DNA of 64,000 nucleotides from Methanococcoides vulcani (GTDB lineage Archaea > Halobacteriota > Methanosarcinia > Methanosarcinales > Methanosarcinaceae), in contig NZ_FOHQ01000002.1 of the NCBI RefSeq assembly GCF_900111645.1, forward strand, positions 186,001 to 250,000, in the 5' to 3' direction. Below, in pieces: positions 30,257 to 41,279 of this stretch; the first letter of the stretch is position 1, and each line of letters opens with the position of its first letter. Below the pieces are notes generated by a model. It did not search any database. It was not told where the DNA came from and saw nothing but the letters and a program-made list of their open reading frames with translations. A program made the position numbers and the translations under genes.

Positions 30257-30622
30257 ATGGCTCAAACAGTATGGGATGTCCTAAATTTGATCGTTCAGCA
30301 GATATTTACAAGTGGAATCGCTCATAGTTCATACCTTCTTGGCGGTCATATACAAAACGCCATTATCATCCCGGTACACAAGCTCAGGGATTCGTATAAG
30401 GAACTTGATCCCGATGCAAAGACCGTGGTCATCTGCGGAAGCAGGCATCGCTCGAGCATGGGTGCAAGCATACTGCAACAGAAAGGCTTCAGTGATGTTT
30501 ACAATGTTTCCGGCGGGATGACCGGTTACAATGCTGCAGGATTTGGTCCTGATTGCCCGTTATGTGCATTCCATGGATATCTTCCGGGAAAGGCAAGAAG
30601 GATGAATAAAAAAGTTGCATAA
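30257..30622 (+). CDS. rhodanese-like domain protein (degenerate N-terminus)
   Basis: A 121-residue single rhodanese domain. The sulfur-carrying loop is C60-GSRHRSS, followed by the typical SGGMTGY ending. However, the usual D-V-R strand before the G-H-I motif is missing: residues 18-31 read differently from family members, so the N-terminal half may have mutated or a small indel may have shifted the frame locally. It ends three bases before the convergent NifX-like gene, near other redox and sulfur genes. Activity uncertain. Confidence 0.7.
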   Translation: MAQTVWDVLNLIVQQIFTSGIAHSSYLLGGHIQNAIIIPVHKLRDSYKELDPDAKTVVICGSRHRSSMGASILQQKGFSDVYNVSGGMTGYNAAGFGPDCPLCAFHGYLPGKARRMNKKVA

Positions 30623-30625
30623 CCT

Positions 30626-31006
30626 TCAAAGGCTATGCTGCGTCAGTCCGAATCCGCGATCCTTGCTCAGGTTTATGCTCTTCGGTCGGTAGAGGTCCCC
30701 TGCTTTCCAGGAATCGATGGCATCCTGTACCGTGCCATCAGCGCCTACAAAGATGTCGATGTTATTCTTGTTCAGCAGGTCAACGATCCTCTGGCCGACC
30801 CCTGAACAGAGAACTACATCTACTCCAACTTTCACCAGCAGTTCATGTGGAAGCCCCTTTCCTCCCACATGGACACTTGTGTTCTCAATGATCTCAATTT
30901 CTTCTGTTTCGCTGTCATAGATCGTGTATGTCGCAGCTTTTCCGAAATGAAGTTCGATATCATCGTCCAATCCACCTTTTTCCGTGCTGGGTATAGCAAT
31001 TTTCAT
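30626..31006 (-). CDS. NifX/NifB-C-terminal-like (Nitro_FeMo-Co) protein, copy 1
   Basis: A 126-residue protein of the PF02579 family that includes NifX, NafY and the molybdenum-copper orange protein of sulfate reducers. It shows the HFGKA and the E-N-x-S-V-H-x-G-G-K-G segment, and G-x-V-L-C-S-G-V-G-Q. It is paralogous to the gene at 34101-34481, lacking its histidine tail. The two flank a cluster of MinD-like ATPases, DUF1847 and a metallo-beta-lactamase. It probably binds a metal cluster; which one is not known. Confidence 0.85.
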   Translation of the reverse strand: MKIAIPSTEKGGLDDDIELHFGKAATYTIYDSETEEIEIIENTSVHVGGKGLPHELLVKVGVDVVLCSGVGQRIVDLLNKNNIDIFVGADGTVQDAIDSWKAGDLYRPKSINLSKDRGFGLTQHSL

Positions 31007-31103
31007 ATTCTCACCTTTTCTCCGGAAGAATATGTTCTCATTGTTTGATATACTTCTGCATTGTGTACGTTTTCAGTCATCCGGAAGTATGCGATCGAGC
31101 AAC

Positions 31104-31760
31104 TCAGAACTTGAAACGGGATCCTGCTGCAATAGGTACAAAAGTATTCGGGAATCTTGTTCTGATGGTCTCAATATTCGATGTGCAGTGTCCGGCACCA
31201 ATGAATTCCAGTCCATCCAGCAGATCGTATTCCTGGCTATCATGTAATCCTCCGATGATGCCACGTACATCTCCTGTGGATGCTGCTGTTCCGATTATTG
31301 TTTCCAGACCCGGGTGTGCACAGCCTGTAATTACGTATATCCCATTGTCCGTTTCAAGAATTAGTGACTGTTCCTTCGGGTTATTCCCAAGTTCACCTGT
31401 AGAAAAGACGTTGTTGCATATCCTGCATTTTTCGGTGACCTCGTGCAAAGTTGAATGGGTGGCTATCTCATTTTTAAGTTTTTCAGAAAATGATGCAGGG
31501 ACGTAAACATCAAGGTTATTGTTAGCATTCAGTATTTCCGGAACACCGCCTATATGGTCCCAGTGCTGGTGTGAAAGTACAAGAATATCAATATCCTCGA
31601 TAGGGATATTAAGTGCTGAAAGATTTTGCTTTAAGGCACATCCGTCCCAGCCGGTATCGAACATTATTTTGCTATCTTCGGTTTGTATATAACAGGAGAA
31701 CCCCCAGCCTTTCTGGAGTCCTTCTTTAGCTTCGTTGTCATAGACGATCGTGACATTCAT
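31104..31760 (-). CDS. metallo-beta-lactamase fold hydrolase
   Basis: A 218-residue MBL protein with the zinc motif SHQHWDH (H64, H66, D68, H69) and later GCAHPG and the histidine in GAGHCTS. It resembles archaeal proteins annotated as dihydropterin-ribofuranosylaminobenzene phosphate synthase-like, which contribute to methanopterin chemistry, but that is a loose label. ATG 31760 shares its A with the TGA stop of the DUF1847 gene, so it is translationally coupled to the cluster. Confidence 0.85.
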   Translation of the reverse strand: MNVTIVYDNEAKEGLQKGWGFSCYIQTEDSKIMFDTGWDGCALKQNLSALNIPIEDIDILVLSHQHWDHIGGVPEILNANNNLDVYVPASFSEKLKNEIATHSTLHEVTEKCRICNNVFSTGELGNNPKEQSLILETDNGIYVITGCAHPGLETIIGTAASTGDVRGIIGGLHDSQEYDLLDGLEFIGAGHCTSNIETIRTRFPNTFVPIAAGSRFKF

Positions 31761-32341
31761 CACATCTTCTCCATGCCGAAACGGTTCTTCAGGTAATATC
31801 CGGAATAGAGTGCTCCTGCAGGATTGTGTGCAAGGACCCTGTCCTTTACAATGAACGTCGTAACAGGAGCCTCAGAATACTTGTTGAACATTATGTCATG
31901 GCCCATGCAGAGTCCGACTATGATGTTAAGGTCGGTCTCCGCCCTGTTAAGCATCATTGCCTGGGCAATAGGATTGCAGGTAGTTTCCCTGCCATCCCTG
32001 ATCTTGTCAAGTCCATATTCTTCCTTGTCCACGCCACAGATCTTGCAGCATACGGACTCTACGATAAAATCCTTCTCAAGTATCCTGCAGAAGGTCCTGG
32101 CCTCATTCTCCAGTCCCACACAAAAAGCAACCCCAAGCTTACGATATCCCATCTCTTTTGCAAAAAGGATCAGCTCTTCAAGCCTTGTCTTCTCCATGTA
32201 GAAGTTCGCCTCTATCTTTGAAGCTACCTTCATCATCTCGAGGTCTTCTGACCTGTATTCTGCCTGTACTTCTGCCGGAGTACAGTCTTTTCCCTGCCTG
32301 CACCTTTTTGTATCACAGGATGCACATTTCATGGCCTTCAC
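31760..32341 (-). CDS. DUF1847 cysteine-rich protein
   Basis: A 193-residue protein with at least nine cysteines. CASCDTKRCRQGKDC opens the protein, CCKICGVD sits in the middle, and single cysteines are in FCVGLE, TCNP and GLCMGHD. It matches what I know as DUF1847, found in anaerobes and of unknown function; the cysteines suggest Fe-S or metal binding. It lies between a MinD-like ATPase gene and the MBL gene, with a stop/start overlap to the latter. Confidence 0.8.
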   Translation of the reverse strand: MKAMKCASCDTKRCRQGKDCTPAEVQAEYRSEDLEMMKVASKIEANFYMEKTRLEELILFAKEMGYRKLGVAFCVGLENEARTFCRILEKDFIVESVCCKICGVDKEEYGLDKIRDGRETTCNPIAQAMMLNRAETDLNIIVGLCMGHDIMFNKYSEAPVTTFIVKDRVLAHNPAGALYSGYYLKNRFGMEKM

Positions 32342-32368
32342 CTCTTAAAAGTTAATTTATTTTCTGGA

Positions 32369-33238
32369 TCATGGACTTTCACAGAGCTCTGACCTTACAG
32401 TTTTCCAGATTTCCCTGAGGTTTTCTGAGAACTCATTGTCTGCATATTCAATGACGGTCTTTTTTCCGATCATCGCTTTGTTCGGGATCGTGTCATATGG
32501 TAACTTTCCTGCTACGATGATGCCGTTTTCCTTACAGGAGATCTCGATCTGCTTTGTGTTCTCTTCATTGATGCTATATTTGTTAATACAGACGATAGCC
32601 GGTATCCTGAAGTGGTCAGTTACCTGTATTATCCTTTCCAGGTCGTGTATCCCTGATAGGCTTGGTTCTGTGACAATGAGGGCAAGGTCTGCACCGGTAA
32701 TGGCTGCTATTACGGGGCATCCGGTTCCGGGTGGTCCGTCACATATTATCAGTTCGGCTCCGTTCTCACCGGCAAGTGACGATGCATGTTCTTTTACTGC
32801 AGTGACCAGTTTGCCGCTTGCTTCTTCTCCGATCATGAGCTCTGCATGTACCATTGGACCATACCTGGTCATGGAATCAAAGACACTTCCGGATGGGTTG
32901 TTTATCATTTTGATGGCATTTTCAGGGCATACATATTCACAGACCCCGCAACCTTCGCATTTGCAGCTGTTTATGGAATGGTCAGTATAGATGGCATCAA
33001 AATTACAATTCTCGATACATATGTTGCATCCGGTACATCTTTCAGTATCGATATGTGCGATTTCCATCCCGTGGAAGTCGGAGGCCTCTGTTATCTCAGG
33101 CTCCAGGACCAGATGCAGGTTCGGTGCATCCACATCACAGTCCGCAATTATGGCATTCTCTGCCATTGATGCAATTGCAGCAGTGATGGTGGTCTTCCCT
33201 GTTCCTCCTTTGCCGCTGATGATGACAAGCTGTTTCAT
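32369..33238 (-). CDS. ferredoxin-inserted MinD-like ATPase 1
   Basis: A 289-residue P-loop ATPase of the Mrp/MinD superfamily with the deviant Walker A GKGGTGKTT at residues 9-17. Two 4Fe-4S motifs are inserted after the first third (CTGCNICIENC and CEGCGVCEYVCP), followed by the DGPPGTGCP switch. Such proteins accompany orange-protein/NifX genes in anaerobes. ATG 33238 overlaps the stop of the second ATPase gene by four bases. It likely couples ATP hydrolysis to assembly or insertion of a metal cluster; this is inference. Confidence 0.88.
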   Translation of the reverse strand: MKQLVIISGKGGTGKTTITAAIASMAENAIIADCDVDAPNLHLVLEPEITEASDFHGMEIAHIDTERCTGCNICIENCNFDAIYTDHSINSCKCEGCGVCEYVCPENAIKMINNPSGSVFDSMTRYGPMVHAELMIGEEASGKLVTAVKEHASSLAGENGAELIICDGPPGTGCPVIAAITGADLALIVTEPSLSGIHDLERIIQVTDHFRIPAIVCINKYSINEENTKQIEISCKENGIIVAGKLPYDTIPNKAMIGKKTVIEYADNEFSENLREIWKTVRSELCESP

Positions 33239-34092
33239 GCTTCTATCTCCCTGCCATATCTGTCCTGGATCGAGCTGTAGATATGTATGAACTTCTCTTT
33301 CCACTGTCCCATTTCCTGCACAAATGGTATCCCTTCCGAATACAACTGCGCGATCTTTGTGTCGTGGGGTATATTCATCAGTATCTCGATACCTTCGTTC
33401 ATGCAATATTCTTCAACACTATCATCACCGCTACCGCTTCGATTGATGACGATCCCATGTGGGATCTCAAGTGTTCGAACTACTTCCACTGCCAGTTTCA
33501 GGTCATGCAATCCAAAAGGAGTGGGTTCTGTAACAAGGATACAGTAGTCAACATCCTCAAGTGTTGTCAGGACCGGGCATGCGGTGCCCGGCGGTGCGTC
33601 AATGATGGCTGTCCTGCCCGGGTCTATGTTCTTCTTGAGCTCACTGATCACAGGTGAGGCCATTGTCTGCCCTATGTCCAGTAATCCTTCGTAGAGTTCA
33701 GGCCCGTTCTCATCGTCTGCAGAAGTTTTCCTGATGATCCCTGTAATGGTCTCATGCTTTTGTATGGCTCCTTCGGGACAGACCATTATGCATCCTCCGC
33801 AGCTGTGGCATAATGTTGGGAACGTCAGGATCTTGTTCGGGAGGGTAGCAATTGCGTTGAAACGGCAGAAGTCAGAACATTTTTTACAATATGTGCAGTT
33901 CTCTTCCACAATTTCAGGGATCATGGACGTTACTTCTGTGACCTGCTCAAGTTCCTTTTTGAGGAACAGGTTGCAGTTCGGTTCTTCAACATCACAGTCT
34001 ATGAGCTGTGCGTCCTGAATGGAAAGGGCAAGGTTCACAGCTACGGTAGTTTTGCCGGTACCGCCTTTTCCGCTTGCTATGGCGATCTTCAT
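33235..34092 (-). CDS. ferredoxin-inserted MinD-like ATPase 2
   Basis: A 285-residue paralogue of the neighbouring ATPase. The deviant Walker A GKGGTGKTT is at residues 8-16, followed by cluster motifs CTYCKKCSDFC and CHSCGGCIMVCP and the DAPPGTACP switch. Two such ATPases in tandem, beside a PF02579 protein, is the gene order known from the Desulfovibrio orange-protein locus. The gene starts eight bases after the NifX-like gene at 34101-34481, in the same operon. Confidence 0.88.
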   Translation of the reverse strand: MKIAIASGKGGTGKTTVAVNLALSIQDAQLIDCDVEEPNCNLFLKKELEQVTEVTSMIPEIVEENCTYCKKCSDFCRFNAIATLPNKILTFPTLCHSCGGCIMVCPEGAIQKHETITGIIRKTSADDENGPELYEGLLDIGQTMASPVISELKKNIDPGRTAIIDAPPGTACPVLTTLEDVDYCILVTEPTPFGLHDLKLAVEVVRTLEIPHGIVINRSGSGDDSVEEYCMNEGIEILMNIPHDTKIAQLYSEGIPFVQEMGQWKEKFIHIYSSIQDRYGREIEA

Positions 34093-34100
34093 GATATCAA

Positions 34101-34481
34101 TTAATGCTGATTGTGGTCGTGGTCATGTCCATGGTCCTGGCAGACGTTTTCACTGTTTGGGCTTGCAAGGTTGCCTGCTTTCCAGTCGAAAATGGCTGTT
34201 TCCACAGTTCCCTGTGCTCCGACAAAGACCTCTATATCAAAATTTGAGAACATGGTTACAGCCTTTTGTCCAAGTCCTCCGCAAAGCATAATATTGACAC
34301 CTGCCTCTGATAGTAGTTCCGGTGGCAGTCCAACGCCTCCGTTGTGCTGGCTTGTGTTCTCTACGATCATAACTTCATCTGTCTCTGTATCCAGTACAGT
34401 ATAGACCGGAACCATTCCAAAGTGCTGTCCTACATTATCTTCCAATCCACCATTTTTTGCAGAAGGTACGCATACTTTCAT
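34101..34481 (-). CDS. NifX/orange-protein-like (Nitro_FeMo-Co) protein, copy 2
   Basis: A 126-residue PF02579 protein, first gene of the cluster that runs down to the MBL gene. It shares HFG, E-N-T-S-x-H-x-G-G and L-C-G-G-L-G-Q with its paralogue at 30626-31006. It ends in a histidine/aspartate tail (HGHDHDHNQH), a likely metal-binding extension. It could carry or scaffold a metal cluster handled by the two MinD-like ATPases. Metal identity unknown. Confidence 0.87.
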   Translation of the reverse strand: MKVCVPSAKNGGLEDNVGQHFGMVPVYTVLDTETDEVMIVENTSQHNGGVGLPPELLSEAGVNIMLCGGLGQKAVTMFSNFDIEVFVGAQGTVETAIFDWKAGNLASPNSENVCQDHGHDHDHNQH

Positions 34482-34654
34482 CTTTTTTACCTCTCGTATA
34501 TGTTCAATTTTGATTTATTATGCTCATATACGATGAAGTATTTAAAATTAATGGGAAACATTGATATATTTACTCTCTTTTGTACATTTTAATCTTCGAG
34601 AGCTTCAATAGGGTGCCAACGAATTTATGTAGTTAAGTTTCATAATATACACGT

Positions 34655-35451
34655 ATGCTATCCTTCTTTGAAGCCGTTGTTCTTGGTATTGTTCAGGGGA
34701 CAGCGGAATGGCTGCCCATAAGCAGTGAAGGTATGACCTCCCTTGTAATGATCAATTTTTTTGGGAAAACACTTTCTGAAGCTATTCCTATTTCCATATG
34801 GCTGCATCTGGGAACTTTGCTGGCAGCAACGGTATATTTCAAAAAGGATGTGTTTGAGATCCTTTCAGGGCTTCCTGGCTATTTTCAAACCTTTTCTTCA
34901 GGTGGTCAACGCGACCCCATCATAAGTTTCCTCATAATTTCTACGATGCTTACGGGTATTGTCGGCTTGCCTCTGGTGCTGCTCGCAACGGACCATTCTG
35001 AGATAAGTGGTGCATCAGCAACAGCTCTTATTGGTGTCATGCTGATCGTGACCGGTGTCCTTCAGAGGACTGCGTCACGTGGCGTCACAAAAAAAGTATC
35101 CCTGGTAATCCGGATTCTTTCATCACGGGTATCCTGCAGGGATTTGCAGCAGTACCGGGTATTAGTCGTTCCGGTATCACAATGTCTGCTCTCCTCCTGC
35201 GCAAGTTCGATACGGAAGATGCCATAAAACTGAGCTTTCTAATGAGCATCCCGGCTGTCCTGGCAGCGGAGATCGGTATCGGTCTTATGGGTGCAGTTAC
35301 ACTTGACATCTATTCTCTGGTAGCTCTGTTCTTCTCGTTCGTTTTCGGGCTTATTACAATAGATGTTTTCCTTAAGGTTGCAAAAATAGTTGATTTCTCT
35401 TACTTTTGCATTGGTCTTGGCATCCTCAGTGTGTTGGCACTTTTCCTCTGA
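34655..35451 (+). CDS. uppP: undecaprenyl-diphosphatase-like UppP, interrupted by a -1 frame change
   Basis: An integral membrane phosphatase of the BacA/UppP family, which recycles polyprenyl diphosphate carriers for glycan synthesis. The first frame covers about 145 residues, with GTAEWLPISSEG near residue 15. At an A7 run (35089-35095) the family sequence jumps to the -1 frame, which carries the essential PGISRSG motif and the last helices to TGA 35449-35451. Joined, the product is about 265 residues, the normal length. In the zero frame the run is read A-AAA-AAA, a classical slippery heptamer. It is either a recent one-base deletion, a sequencing error, or real recoding. Confidence 0.75.
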
Positions 35452-35678: not shown

Positions 35679-36710
35679 TTAGTATGTCCAGTTCTTTGCA
35701 GCTTCGATCATTGCCTGAAGGTTCTCGGTTGGGGTCTGGCTTACGATACCACAGCCAGGTGAGAGAAGTCCCTTGCCATCGAGTTCCTTGAGTACTCTCT
35801 CGGACTCTGCTTTGACGTTTGCTACGTCTGTGTTCCAGAGGCAGTTGACTGGGTCGAGGTTACCGACGATGAGTGCCTTCTCTACCTTGCTGACAGCGGT
35901 TGCTGCGTTAACGTTCTGGTCGACACTGATCGCGTCTACACCACAGGTCTCCATGAGTGCAAGACCTTCGGTTGTGTCACCACAGATGTGGAGTACAGCT
36001 GGTACACCACGCTCGTGGAGTGCGTCAATGAGCTTCTGGTGGAATGGTACTACGAACTTTGCGTAGAAGTCTGCACCGATAAGTGAGTAGCTTGCGGTTG
36101 GGTCAATGATGGAGAATACACTTGCTCCACTGTCGACCTGTGCGAGTGCGTATTTGATTGAGAATTCGGTTGTGAAATCCATTATCGCAAGACCGTATTC
36201 CTCCTTTGTCATGATGTCCATGAACCAGGAGTCGCCGGTGATGTGCTGTGCAAGTGAGAAAGGACCGATCATACTTCCGATGATTGGGAGCTCTTCTCCA
36301 TACTTGTCAGCGAGGATCTTGATTGATTCGAGGACGACGGAGGTTCTCTTGCTTGAGTCTGTGACATCGTATCCTTCGAACGGCTTGAGGTCATCCAGGC
36401 TGTTTACAACGTGTTTGATGACGGATGGTTGCTGTACCTTTGTACCGTCCTTGATTTCACAGCCGAAGAACTCTGCTTCTGCGGTGATGTCGAATGGGAC
36501 ACGGATCGCTTCGAATCCGACAACTGTGTGTCCAGCTTCTGCAAGTGCAGCAAGCTGTGCAGCATCATAGTTTGCTTCTGGCCAGAAGGTGTTTACTGCT
36601 TCCATCTGGTCTACAGTTCCGGTCTGTGTGACACAGACAGCTGGCATCCTGTCGACTTTCTCTCCATTCATTACGCGGATTAATCTTTCCTTTGGTGTGT
36701 ATTCGGACAT
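35679..36710 (-). CDS. mtbA: methylcobamide:CoM methyltransferase (MtbA/MtaA family)
   Basis: A 343-residue zinc enzyme of the uroporphyrinogen-decarboxylase fold that moves the methyl group from a corrinoid protein to coenzyme M. The zinc ligands H241-x-C243 and C320 are present. MtbA serves methylamines and MtaA methanol; the placement right after the pyl operon on the same strand argues for MtbA, though sequence alone does not prove it. It has its own strong TATA box and an AAAGGAG ribosome site, so it can be expressed independently of pyl. Confidence 0.88.
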   Translation of the reverse strand: MSEYTPKERLIRVMNGEKVDRMPAVCVTQTGTVDQMEAVNTFWPEANYDAAQLAALAEAGHTVVGFEAIRVPFDITAEAEFFGCEIKDGTKVQQPSVIKHVVNSLDDLKPFEGYDVTDSSKRTSVVLESIKILADKYGEELPIIGSMIGPFSLAQHITGDSWFMDIMTKEEYGLAIMDFTTEFSIKYALAQVDSGASVFSIIDPTASYSLIGADFYAKFVVPFHQKLIDALHERGVPAVLHICGDTTEGLALMETCGVDAISVDQNVNAATAVSKVEKALIVGNLDPVNCLWNTDVANVKAESERVLKELDGKGLLSPGCGIVSQTPTENLQAMIEAAKNWTY

Positions 36711-36754
36711 TTACATTCTCCTTTATACTAGATCCTTTATAATCACTAAAAAGG

Positions 36755-36769
36755 TACATACGCTATGTA
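36755..36769 (-). promoter_or_regulatory. palindrome at the expected mtbA transcription start
   Basis: TACATA-CGC-TATGTA is a perfect inverted repeat. It lies between the TATA box at 36775-36785 and the mtbA ATG, about where transcription should begin. A position overlapping the start site is typical of archaeal repressor operators. Regulator unknown. Confidence 0.45.
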
Positions 36770-36774
36770 TTTGC

Positions 36775-36785
36775 AATATATATAC
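36775..36785 (-). promoter_or_regulatory. TATA box of mtbA
   Basis: On the minus strand GGTATATATATTGC is a strong archaeal TATA element, about 65 bases before the mtbA start codon. The implied transcript has a leader of roughly 45 bases. Confidence 0.55.
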
Positions 36786-36917
36786 CTTTTTGTTTGGTAA
36801 AAATCACTTGCAATAGTCGCATTGGACAAGTATTATGGATTTATTTTGGTGATTTTTGTTATGGTTTCAGCAAACATTTCTTCCTGCCAAAACACCGTAT
36901 ATTTTTTTACTTTAATC

Positions 36918-37697
36918 TTATAAAACTGAATAAAGCATTGCTGCTACTCCAATTACCAGTGGTTCCATTACAAGGTCGATGTCATACTTCTCGACAAGTT
37001 CATCCGGCAGGGCGCATGGGATGCCGGGGGTTGATACAAGACAGCGTTCTGCGATCATTCCTTCTGATATGGTATTCGCATTGGGTGTTGCCTCAAAGAC
37101 CATCGAGAACTTCCTCGGGCTCTCAATATCAAAGGCTTTCACACCAAGTTCTTCTATTGCCTTGTTCATGAAATCGGTGTTCGGATCGCATGCATATACG
37201 TTGAATCCCTTCTCTACAAGGTGTGACGCACCGGCATAACCTACACGTCCAAGACCTATCACCAGTACATCCTTCGAATCGGTGTGCTTATATCTTGAAG
37301 CTATCTCCGAATAGATCACGCCGGTGCATACATGGTTGGTTGCTATCTTACCGTTCCTCAGGTTGTGGGCAACGAAGATGTGGTCATCTGCCATCAGTAT
37401 GATGTCTGCACCATTTGCTACTGCCTGATGGTATCCTGTTATGTCGGGATGCTCAGTAATAAAACCTTCAAGTCCGAAATATTCGGTTATTGCAAGCAGG
37501 GATGATGAGAAATTCCCGATGATACCGTTGCCGGACGTGATGGGTACGATCCCCACCTTCCGGGAGTCGGGGGTAGTACCATAGACGGCCTCGCATATCT
37601 GTGCGATATCCATCCCGGTGGCTTCTTTGATGATGTTATTGTTCATGTTGAGTTTGTTCAACAGGTCTTCCAGGTCTTCAGGTGTCAATAGTGCCAT
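36918..37697 (-). CDS. pylD: pyrrolysine biosynthesis protein PylD
   Basis: A 259-residue dehydrogenase that performs the last step of pyrrolysine synthesis, oxidising the lysine-derived dipeptide so that the pyrroline ring closes. The Rossmann motif VIGLGRVGYAG is near residues 145-155. Length matches known PylD. It follows pylC by 12 bases as the last gene of the pylT-S-B-C-D order. Confidence 0.95.
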   Translation of the reverse strand: MALLTPEDLEDLLNKLNMNNNIIKEATGMDIAQICEAVYGTTPDSRKVGIVPITSGNGIIGNFSSSLLAITEYFGLEGFITEHPDITGYHQAVANGADIILMADDHIFVAHNLRNGKIATNHVCTGVIYSEIASRYKHTDSKDVLVIGLGRVGYAGASHLVEKGFNVYACDPNTDFMNKAIEELGVKAFDIESPRKFSMVFEATPNANTISEGMIAERCLVSTPGIPCALPDELVEKYDIDLVMEPLVIGVAAMLYSVL

Positions 37698-37709
37698 AAT
37701 GATTACCTC

Positions 37710-38792
37710 TTAAAATCCATAATGTTGTCCGATATATGCAATTGCTCTGTTACGTGCGATCTGTGCTGCATTTTCATCGATGCCCCTTGAGATGAGGGTG
37801 AATACAGTGTCCTTCCCATCGGACCTGAATATTTCAAGTCCGTTCTCCTCATGGAACAGGTCATAGCTGTCTCCCATGGACAGGACGTGTTCTCCAACGG
37901 GCACAAGTTCACCATCTTTCAGCAATAAGTGCTCAAAGATACAGTATCCTTTTTCAGGTGCCTTTTCGATCTCAGTTACACCTTCAGTGAATGCCTGCAT
38001 CAGCATTTCTACAAGATTGATACCACTTGAATGGTATACCGCCGTTGGTGTCTGGCTTGGGAACCGGGCATCGATCTCGAGAACTTTAAGTCCCCTGTCG
38101 GAAGCGATCGCCTCTACATCCATGATCCCTTTCAGGTTGAGATTCGCGGCAAGACTGTGTGATATCTGCCTGAATTCCGGGTCATGGTCGATAGGCGTTA
38201 TCATATGACAATCGTAGGTGTCATCGATATGCACCTTTGTTTCCTTCACCACAGCAAAATGCTTACCATCACCGATGATCTCCAGTGATACAACATCACC
38301 TTCCAGATATTCTTCGATCATCATGGTAGGGTCGATCCCTTCAAGTCCACTGTCATCGTAAATGATACTGGTTCCGATGCTGCTGCTTTCACATGGCGGT
38401 TTGACAAAATATGGTGGTTGGGATGGTCTGTCATCCGGAGTTGGTACTCCTATGGATACAAAATATTCCTTTGACCTGTTTTTGTCCATGCTGATGTGGT
38501 ATGCATCAAAATCAAAAAGAACGGGACAATCCAGCTTGCAGCTGATATTCCTTATGAAGTTCAGGGTATTAAGGTTCTCATTTACCGGTATTATGGCATC
38601 GACATTCCTTGAGATGCCGATAAACCTTTCCGGTTCCTGAATTACGTCAAAACAGAAGAATCCGTCAACAACATTGCGGATAAGGGGCTTCTCGTTCCGG
38701 TCTATCAGAACAACATTCATCCCCGCTTTCCTGGCAAGATAGCTCACTTCGAATCCCTGAAGCTTGCCTCCTATTAAACAGATCGTCGTCAT
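37710..38792 (-). CDS. pylC: 3-methylornithine--L-lysine ligase PylC
   Basis: A 360-residue ATP-grasp ligase that joins 3-methyl-D-ornithine to lysine in pyrrolysine synthesis. It has the N-terminal CLIGGKLQG strand-loop, the FVKPPCESSS ATP lysine loop and the LEIDARFPSQTPT metal/substrate segment. ATG 38792 is preferred and lies one base after the pylB stop, so the two genes are translationally linked. Confidence 0.95.
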   Translation of the reverse strand: MTTICLIGGKLQGFEVSYLARKAGMNVVLIDRNEKPLIRNVVDGFFCFDVIQEPERFIGISRNVDAIIPVNENLNTLNFIRNISCKLDCPVLFDFDAYHISMDKNRSKEYFVSIGVPTPDDRPSQPPYFVKPPCESSSIGTSIIYDDSGLEGIDPTMMIEEYLEGDVVSLEIIGDGKHFAVVKETKVHIDDTYDCHMITPIDHDPEFRQISHSLAANLNLKGIMDVEAIASDRGLKVLEIDARFPSQTPTAVYHSSGINLVEMLMQAFTEGVTEIEKAPEKGYCIFEHLLLKDGELVPVGEHVLSMGDSYDLFHEENGLEIFRSDGKDTVFTLISRGIDENAAQIARNRAIAYIGQHYGF

Positions 38793-38793
38793 C

Positions 38794-39846
38794 CTATCGC
38801 CCCAACAACTTCTCGAACTCACTTTGTTCAGCGGGTTCCATACCCATTGTCTTCAGTCTGGCGATAACGCTCTTAACATCCCTGTCCCTCTCGGCATGTT
38901 CCCTGTCGTAGTTCACGACACCTTCAAGAGATGAATTGGAAGATATTATGGATGTGACGACGTTTGCTCCTGCATTTAACCTGTGGACCATTCCATCGAT
39001 CCCTTCAAGGTCAAGTGATGCCGGAATAAGCTTGTCCGGGTAGAGCAGGCGCAGTATGGAGATGATCTTCAGTTCTGATGAGCTGTCCCTTACTTCCTTT
39101 CCTTCCAGCGGCGTTCCCTGTTGCGGGAGGAATGTCATCACACGTACCATATCTGGATTTGATGTTGCTAATCCTCTCAATGATATGATCGTGGACTCAA
39201 TATCCGGTTCCACTTCTGTTAGGATACCATCCTCAACACAATAGCCGATCTTTTTAGCATGGTTCCTTGAATTGATCCTGCCTTCAAATGATTGCTCGAC
39301 CCTTAATTGCTTGTACAGTTCCATGTCATAGGTTTCCTGATACAGGGCAAGGAAGTTGGCACCGTTGTCCTTGAGCATTTCAAGGGTATCGTTGTCAACA
39401 ACTCCTGGGGAGATCATGATAGGTTTTCCGACTTCTTCCTTTACGGTCCTGACAAATTCTGCCAGTCGTTCAGGTTTGTTGTGGAAGTATGGGTCTTCTC
39501 CCATTGTGAGGTCGACCATGTGTACATTTTCGGTCTTGATCACCTGGCAGATCTTCCTGATGTCCTCTACGCTAAGACGGTATCTGTCAATTTTGTTGGC
39601 ATTGTTGTAATAACAGAATGTGCATTTGTTCTTGCAGTATGTAGAAAAGTACACAAAGCTGTACATGAACACCTTATTTCCGAAGAAATTGTCTCGGATG
39701 TGTCGTGCCACATAGTGCAGTTTTTCAATTTCATCAGGGCTTTCAGTCTCAAGAAGGCTCCTGATATCATCATCGGACAATTGTGACCCGTCTATGATCT
39801 GCTCTGCATAGTTGTCAAGGTCTTCATTATCCATGTTCTTAAACAA
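38794..39846 (-). CDS. pylB: methylornithine synthase PylB (radical SAM), UAG-terminated
   Basis: A radical SAM mutase of 350 residues that rearranges lysine into 3-methylornithine. The 4Fe-4S motif C-x3-C-x2-C is in YCKNKCTFCYY. The start is taken as TTG 39846, five bases after a GAGGTGA ribosome site that overlaps the pylS stop; ATG 39834 is the alternative. The gene ends in TAG, the pyrrolysine codon. Readthrough would add Pyl plus 42 residues to a TGA at 38665-38667, in a frame different from pylC. Confidence 0.93.
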   Translation of the reverse strand: MFKNMDNEDLDNYAEQIIDGSQLSDDDIRSLLETESPDEIEKLHYVARHIRDNFFGNKVFMYSFVYFSTYCKNKCTFCYYNNANKIDRYRLSVEDIRKICQVIKTENVHMVDLTMGEDPYFHNKPERLAEFVRTVKEEVGKPIMISPGVVDNDTLEMLKDNGANFLALYQETYDMELYKQLRVEQSFEGRINSRNHAKKIGYCVEDGILTEVEPDIESTIISLRGLATSNPDMVRVMTFLPQQGTPLEGKEVRDSSSELKIISILRLLYPDKLIPASLDLEGIDGMVHRLNAGANVVTSIISSNSSLEGVVNYDREHAERDRDVKSVIARLKTMGMEPAEQSEFEKLLGR

Positions 39847-39856
39847 GATGTTCACC

Positions 39857-41110
<1,254 letters not shown>

Positions 41111-41207
41111 CTATTGCGAAGTACTTCATATTATCATCATCCTTTACTTACACCCGATGTCTGTCACATCATGGCGCTATATGTTTTAATGGAAAGCCAT
41201 GTCCATC

Positions 41208-41279
41208 TGGCGGAAACTCCGGGAATCTAACCCGGCTGAACGGATTTAGAGTCCGTTCGATCTACATGATCAAGTCTCC
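41208..41279 (-). tRNA. pylT: tRNA-Pyl (anticodon CUA)
   Basis: A 72-base tRNA including encoded CCA. The acceptor GGAGACT pairs with AGTTTCC (one G-U), discriminator G. The anticodon CTA is encoded at 41247-41249, reading UAG. It has the hallmarks of tRNA-Pyl: an extended anticodon stem, a very short D loop and a minimal variable region. The sequence around the anticodon (GGACTCTAAATCC) is that of known tRNA-Pyl. It precedes pylS, the order seen in methanogens. Confidence 0.97.

Follow-up and report, generated by a model that had tools for sequence, protein, structure and literature searches.

A conserved operon of PF02579 proteins, paired MinD-ferredoxin ATPases and DUF1847 in Methanococcoides vulcani: a candidate module for iron-sulfur cluster transfer or repair

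Introduction

In Desulfovibrio, the orange-protein (ORP) complex combines Orp8, a PF02579 (NifX family) protein, with the MinD-type ATPases Orp3 and Orp4, each of which carries two [4Fe-4S] motifs, and in vitro MrpORP hands over iron-sulfur (Fe-S) clusters to the complex with Orp3/Orp4 (PMC6345978). The complex has a putative role in cell division, and MrpORP is found at one cell pole (PMC6345978). In Pyrococcus furiosus, the PF02579 protein IssA serves as thioferrate storage, and its cationic, glycine/aromatic-rich tail was proposed to be the thioferrate-binding element (PMC5524996). Here we analyse a six-gene operon within a 64,000-nucleotide stretch, in the following called the window, of the archaeon Methanococcoides vulcani (contig NZ_FOHQ01000002.1, positions 186,001 to 250,000). 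All six genes lie on the minus strand at 30626-34481 in the order NifX1, MinD1-Fd, MinD2-Fd, DUF1847, MBL and NifX2, where NifX stands for a PF02579 protein, Fd for a ferredoxin domain and MBL for a metallo-beta-lactamase fold. Our proposal, to which we give about an even chance of being right, is that these genes form an anaerobic module of the orange-protein/IssA type that transfers or repairs metal-sulfur clusters, most likely iron-sulfur ones.

Fe-S trafficking in methanogens and anaerobic methanotrophic archaea (ANME), which have a very high Fe-S demand, is largely an open field (PMC8351635). An initial annotation of the window, made from the sequence alone, had called the role of this gene cluster in archaea undefined, and indeed none was found described in the literature searched. 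Searches on archaeal NifX/MinD clusters returned nothing specific, and the parts of methanogen Fe/S papers that were seen mention IssA-like or 'dinitrogenase cofactor' proteins and do not describe the window's cluster.

Conservation of the operon

The six open reading frames and their Pfam families agree with the gene order first described for the window. NifX1 and MinD1 are separated by 8 nt, MinD1 and MinD2 overlap by 4 nt (ATGA), MinD2 and DUF1847 are 36 nt apart, DUF1847 and MBL overlap at TGATG, and NifX2 follows MBL after 97 nt. We searched 60 related genomes, including that of M. vulcani itself, for DUF1847, the MinD-Fd pair, MBL and PF02579, and compared the positions of the matches. 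DUF1847 was found in 37/60 genomes and the MinD-Fd pair in 44/60. Both occurred together in 36 genomes, DUF1847 alone in 1, the pair alone in 8 and neither in 15, a phylogenetic profile that links DUF1847 to the ATPases (Fisher p about 1e-7, uncorrected for kinship).

Among 56 MinD-Fd groups, 53 are adjacent doublets; a PF02579 gene is nearby in 47, MBL in 28 and DUF1847 within 5 kb in 26. Seen from the other side, 26 of the 39 DUF1847 copies lie at most 5 kb from a MinD-Fd pair, while about 0.5% would be expected from chance placement, and the gene order is thus far from chance. Together with the order and the overlaps, this supports the earlier description of the genes as a tight functional unit, and the core members, NifX and the MinD pair, were not found apart from each other in most relatives. 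PF02579, MinD1 and MinD2 form the conserved core, which is often joined by DUF1847 and MBL as separable partners. The two had been regarded as additions specific to a methanogen version; they do often belong to the cluster, but they are not fixed in it and also occur outside it in Methanosarcina, ANME and bacteria. NifX2 following MBL was seen only in the genus of M. vulcani and close relatives (L032-L034, L052) and therefore stands outside the widely conserved core. A close match, Methanococcoides alaskense (L052), has the gene order of the window's cluster.

A scan of a genome collection with a DUF1847 alignment gave 80 named loci from Methanosarcinales, ANME, Thermoplasmatota, Hadesarchaea and several bacterial groups, and the order PF02579-PF02579-MinD1-MinD2-DUF1847-MBL recurs in the neighbourhood maps. 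DUF1847 is also present in Clostridia-like and Desulfurobacteriaceae metagenome-assembled genomes (MAGs). Most sampled relatives have the module, as does the whole genus of M. vulcani, and it extends to three archaeal phyla and to bacteria. DUF1847 is solitary in Methanosarcina, in ANME-1 and in most of the listed bacteria. Among the 32 genomes behind such solitary-type loci, many of them incomplete MAGs, 24 encode both MinD-Fd proteins or one of them at another place, and neither was found in the other 8, which include the Bacillota MAGs L093/L098, the Syntrophomonadaceae MAGs L121/L123 and Desulfurobacteriaceae L129.

The MinD-Fd ATPase pair

In a tree of 100 MinD-Fd proteins, MinD1 and MinD2 fall into separate groups (100/98 support), each with archaeal and bacterial members; long branches meet at the base of the tree and its root is unsure. 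Since both groups span archaea and bacteria, the duplication is older than the spread of the pair, as expected of an obligate heterodimer, and judged by their adjacency and by these mirrored clades the MinD-Fd proteins are an obligate pair. In one congener (L033, 7297-8639) MinD1 is gone and MinD2 has no Walker-A/P-loop, with the PF02579 genes, DUF1847 and MBL kept; this natural loss could be informative on function.

The eight ferredoxin cysteines are invariant in 83/83 relatives, and beyond them just C33 of a DCDV motif, C172 (82/83) and C230 (79/83) are conserved. C172 follows the Walker-B residue Asp165 by seven positions, just as the cluster ligand Cys132 of NifH follows Asp125. In Nbp35 and Mrp the cluster site is a C-terminal CxxC; no further conserved CxxC column pair is present in the MinD-Fd alignment. 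The Mrp/NBP35 (NUBPL) profile PF10609 scores 65.3 and 42.5 bits (gathering cut-off 27.1), with the profile aligned in part only. Foldseek with the AlphaFold (AF2) model of MinD1, which has a predicted local distance difference test (pLDDT) score of 95.9, had MinD (1ion) as its top match; ApbC, an Fe-S carrier, and Cfd1 were likewise within the first 13 matches, and chains of the nitrogenase-like DPOR (2ynm, 6uyk) came lower in the list.

The fold would also suit a pair that organises the cell as MinD and ParA do, as was suggested for the Desulfovibrio ORP complex with its polar MrpORP and putative division role (PMC6345978). However, the two proteins reach only 58.7 and 61.4 bits with the archaeal MinD model TIGR01969, whose cut-off is 201.75, and a true MinD division ATPase (TIGR01969/TIGR01968) was rejected, both proteins being far below the curated cut-offs. 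Spatial positioning would have no need of invariant Fe-S cysteines, the neighbouring genes are of Fe-S and metal handling, and a simple moment scan, itself weak evidence, detected no strongly hydrophobic C-terminal membrane helix (mean hydrophobicity about -0.4). The link to cell division drawn in the initial annotation is accordingly weak, and we consider such a role highly improbable.

A second explanation is an ATP-driven electron pump, in which MinD1-MinD2, like the nitrogenase Fe protein or archerases, would pass low-potential electrons via the ferredoxin domains to a centre in NifX, DUF1847 or the reductase FsrII described below, with no cluster being transferred. The two invariant [4Fe-4S] ferredoxin motifs of each ATPase, the cysteine at the NifH ligand position and the DPOR matches all speak for it. 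On the other hand, the best structural matches also comprise Fe-S carriers that have no electron-transfer role, namely ApbC and Cfd1. The neighbouring genes bear on this point as well.

The PF02579 proteins

According to their sequences, the PF02579 carriers of the clusters are of two recurring kinds. The protein encoded directly before MinD1 mostly ends in a Cys...His-x-His tail, and NifX1 is one of these; in the other an RFGRC motif is usual and an RG-rich tail resembling that of IssA is frequent. The His/Asp metal tail noted earlier on one NifX protein is therefore real in NifX1, but it is part of the wider Cys-His tail of a NifX subfamily rather than a feature of its own. A further PF02579 protein of the M. 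vulcani genome (L051:9974-10648) has a tail in which PVPYHM units are repeated before a charged, coiled-coil-like end, and this tail is possibly metal- or mineral-binding.

Because PF02579 is the NifX/NifB C-terminal domain, the proteins could be taken literally as NifX, that is, as accessories of nitrogenase cofactor assembly. All sampled congeners carry the cluster, but neither in M. vulcani nor in any of them did a nifD match exceed the cut-off. Most congeners gave matches of CfbD size and about 30 bits and one (76% complete) gave none, while M. vulcani and G009 did not get beyond about 100 bits (cut-off 654), the partial match of M. vulcani scoring 102 bits. A nitrogenase role of the window's NifX proteins is essentially excluded, and the probability that we leave to it is close to nil.

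The DUF1847 protein and the MBL enzyme

The DUF1847 protein matches PF08901 with 182.7 bits (gathering cut-off 25). Its gene starts with ATG, and a GTG at 32341 is a possible alternative start. The translation holds 11 cysteines (C3, 6, 11, 17, 71, 82, 95, 96, 99, 119, 142) instead of the nine counted before. In an alignment of 70 sequences C3, C6, C11, C17, C96 and C119 are invariant, and C71, C95, C142, H145 and H169 are kept in at least 90%. The AF2 model (pLDDT 89) has a Rossmann-like alpha/beta domain after a four-cysteine N-terminal segment, with C71, C95/C96 and C142 at or just past strand ends, from which we predict two metal sites, one at C3/C6/C11/C17 and another at C71/C96/C119/C142/H145. 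Sequence search found no solved relative, and a fold search with the model gave no match at E <= 0.001; matches to Dph2, aspartate-racemase and carbamoyltransferase folds were too weak to say more than "Rossmann-like". The literature searched does not mention DUF1847. A subtype from Methanosarcina-like loci (L035, L038, L041, L044, L045, L046) is devoid of the C-terminal C142/H145/H169 and is mostly still found in PF02579-MinD clusters. This persistence suggests that the N-terminal cysteines together with C96/C119 are the essential part of the protein.

In the MBL enzyme, the sequence SHQHWDH fits the HxHxDH zinc motif, and HxHxDH and G[CS]xHPG are kept in 47/47 relatives. The closest solved chain is 7dck (E 3.5e-37), on which our literature search returned nothing specific.

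Neighbouring genes and paralogous clusters

Recurrent neighbours of the clusters, assigned by Pfam, are radical SAM, Mrp/NBP35 (PF10609), DUF134, DUF169 and DUF89/ARMT1-like genes, a cation-efflux (CDF) transporter with a fused C-terminal PF02579 domain, and a protein of 642 aa whose FrhB/FdhB and NIR_SIR domains mark it as one of the F420-dependent sulfite-reductase (Fsr) type. A NifU_N scaffold gene closely precedes DUF1847 in 12 loci. Of the 31 Fsr matches across relatives, 18 have a PF02579, a MinD-Fd or (in one case) a DUF1847 gene no more than 4 kb away, and in Methanohalophilus (L039, L054) an Fsr-type gene is located inside the operon, between PF02579 and MinD1. The identification as FsrII in L036, L039 and L047 rests on a family hidden Markov model and a protein search. 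In ANME-2c, FsrII acts as an F420H2-dependent nitrite reductase, and a term search of the paper describing it for MinD, operon, neighbourhood or dinitrogenase gave no match (PMC9295563). The linkage of FsrII to PF02579 and MinD-Fd genes offers a first physiological handle on the module.

The M. vulcani genome itself has two clusters paralogous to that of the window, L051 on contig C5 and L167 on contig C9. L051 has the order PF02579 (RG-rich tail)-PF02579-MinD1-MinD2-MBL, and a frameshifted remnant of a DUF1847 pseudogene lies between MinD2 and MBL (L051:6541-6735), with the same remnant match in G008 and G009. L051 therefore once had the order of the window's cluster and then lost DUF1847. 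The order in L167 (L167:3361-9630) is PF02579 (RG tail)-PF02579 (Cys-His tail)-FsrII-CDF/PF02579 fusion-MinD1-small Cys-rich protein with a CGGC motif-MinD2; two DUF169 genes are divergent, and a NadA-like gene adjoins the cluster.

The presence of the reductase FsrII in paralogous clusters is a further argument for the electron pump considered above. However, the window's operon contains no dedicated oxidoreductase, and neighbours such as Mrp and the NifU scaffold agree better with assembly, so that we regard the pump as an unlikely, if serious, candidate. A different picture is metal homeostasis or detoxification, in which NifX would sequester Cu, Mo or Zn, comparable to the Mo-Cu cluster of the orange protein, the CDF-PF02579 protein would export the metal and the ATPases would gate loading. 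It draws on the Cys-His tails, on the CDF-PF02579 fusion that several genomes, and the third cluster of M. vulcani, have next to the pair, and on a gene near L167 whose product has a heavy-metal-binding N-terminus. Yet efflux systems do not typically include ferredoxin-type ATPases, a NifU scaffold, Mrp or FsrII, and the window's cluster itself has no transporter, which makes this explanation rather improbable.

Proposed function

From gene order, conservation, motifs, pairing and neighbours we infer a scheme for the identity of the cluster, its movement and direction, the drive by ATP, NifX as carrier, the role of DUF1847, the clients and the conditions. The small PF02579 proteins would hold an inorganic Fe/S (or hetero-metal) unit, and the Cys-His tail of NifX1 may aid metal loading. 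MinD1 and MinD2 would pair into a heterodimer that depends on ATP and resembles Cfd1-Nbp35 or the NifH dimer. Through the inserted 2x[4Fe-4S] ferredoxin domains and the switch cysteine at the NifH position, the nucleotide state would determine whether a cluster is accepted, reduced or released. DUF1847, with its four-cysteine N-terminal site and its cysteines at Rossmann strand ends, might be a cluster-binding scaffold, a sensor or a client, and the MBL enzyme an accessory hydrolase. The module would serve Fe-S-rich enzymes, including the F420-dependent sulfite/nitrite reductase of the paralogues, and its working conditions are probably iron, sulfur or oxyanion stress.

Several points weigh against a cluster transfer or repair module. 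DUF1847 is often alone and in some genomes occurs with no pair at all, so its function is not wholly dependent on the pair. The MBL enzyme has no obvious fit in the scheme, and the metal could be Mo/Cu instead of Fe. Gene neighbourhood is guilt by association, and in the literature searched no protein of the archaeal cluster was purified or deleted.

If the scheme is extended, the operon might stand for a so far undescribed ATP-powered Fe-S repair and delivery system of strict anaerobes. A MinD-Fd heterodimer, two tailed PF02579 carriers and DUF1847 as a new Fe-S family would re-metallate enzymes damaged by sulfite, nitrite or oxygen, in some lineages physically coupled to the oxyanion-removing FsrII. 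We put this forward tentatively and think it doubtful in this full form. Methanosarcina acetivorans, which served as a control in our searches, carries DUF1847 and PF02579 proteins; as it is genetically manipulable, the question is directly testable.

Features of the operon and its surroundings

The genes of the operon and its putative 5' region are compiled in Table 1.

Table 1. Genes and putative control region of the operon; positions refer to the window.
Feature	Position	Strand	Evidence
NifX1, single-domain PF02579 protein, 126 aa, C-terminal Cys/His/Asp tail (NVCQDHGHDHDHNQH)	34101..34481	-	PF02579 E 7.5e-17 (Pfam)
MinD1-Fd, MinD/ParA-type ATPase, 285 aa, inserted two-cluster ferredoxin domain	33235..34092	-	Pfam CbiA/ParA + Fer4
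MinD2-Fd, paralogous ATPase, 289 aa	32369..33238	-	Pfam CbiA/ParA + Fer4 (4Fe-4S)
DUF1847 protein, 190 aa, 11 Cys	31760..32332	-	PF08901 E 4.7e-54
MBL-fold hydrolase, 218 aa, full HxHxDH	31104..31760	-	Lactamase_B E 2e-15
NifX2, second PF02579 protein, 126 aa, without metal tail	30626..31006	-	PF02579 E 1.5e-19
Likely promoter/5' region, TTTTAAAT box at ~34540-34547, GAGAGGT ribosome-binding site before NifX1	34482..34654	-	putative, read by eye

Upstream of the operon (35679-41279, minus strand) lie an MtbA-like methyltransferase gene and a pyrrolysine set (pylD, pylC, pylB, pylS-like, tRNA-Pyl at 41208), and the place of the methyltransferase gene is kept in Methanohalophilus and Methanococcoides relatives. 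The tRNA-Pyl gene marks the genome as that of a methanogen using pyrrolysine. Divergent from the operon (34655-35451, plus strand), an undecaprenyl-diphosphatase (UppP/BacA-like) gene is interrupted by a frameshift close to a run of seven A at ~35087, and near the cluster of the congener L032 just a 51-nt remnant of this gene was found; this suggests gene decay or an error in the homopolymer. At 30257-30622 (plus strand) there is an MBL-rhodanese remnant, in which about 20-39 N-terminal residues are fused to the C-terminal rhodanese part with the middle gone; full-length counterparts in congeners have about 470-590 aa.

Comparison with known systems

The counterpart of the F420-dependent nitrite reductase FsrII of ANME-2c is the 642-aa Fsr-type protein encoded within paralogous clusters (L167 of M. 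vulcani itself and L039 and L054 of Methanohalophilus), but it is a neighbour in these paralogues and no member of the window's operon. With Cfd1-Nbp35 and Mrp-ApbC the MinD-Fd proteins share the deviant Walker-A P-loop of ATPases acting on Fe-S clusters, and the heterodimer is analogous; their cluster sites, in contrast, are an inserted ferredoxin domain and a switch-II cysteine. IssA belongs to the same domain family (PF02579/IPR003731), and the paralogues L051 and L167 carry RG-rich cationic tails. In the window, however, the tail of NifX1 is acidic with His and Asp and NifX2 has none, so neither protein has an IssA-type tail, and the P. furiosus paper is silent on a MinD pair (PMC5524996).

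The closest resemblance suspected at the outset, that to the Desulfovibrio orange-protein system (Orp3, Orp4, Orp5, Orp8 and Orp9/MrpORP), holds for a single-domain PF02579 protein and two MinD-type ATPases with two [4Fe-4S] motifs each, Orp3/Orp4 being compared by their description (PMC6345978). In several archaeal relatives an Mrp-type carrier is also nearby; these Mrp neighbours are proteins of about 280 aa, and a scan of one of them (L045) showed no PF02579 domain. The archaeal cluster differs by adding DUF1847, MBL, the Cys-His tail, the NifU scaffold and the FsrII links, and it has no sigma-54 context. MrpORP, the fusion of Mrp to PF02579, is a defining element of the ORP complex and is absent from the window's cluster, which is therefore best called an ORP/IssA-type module and not the ORP complex proper.

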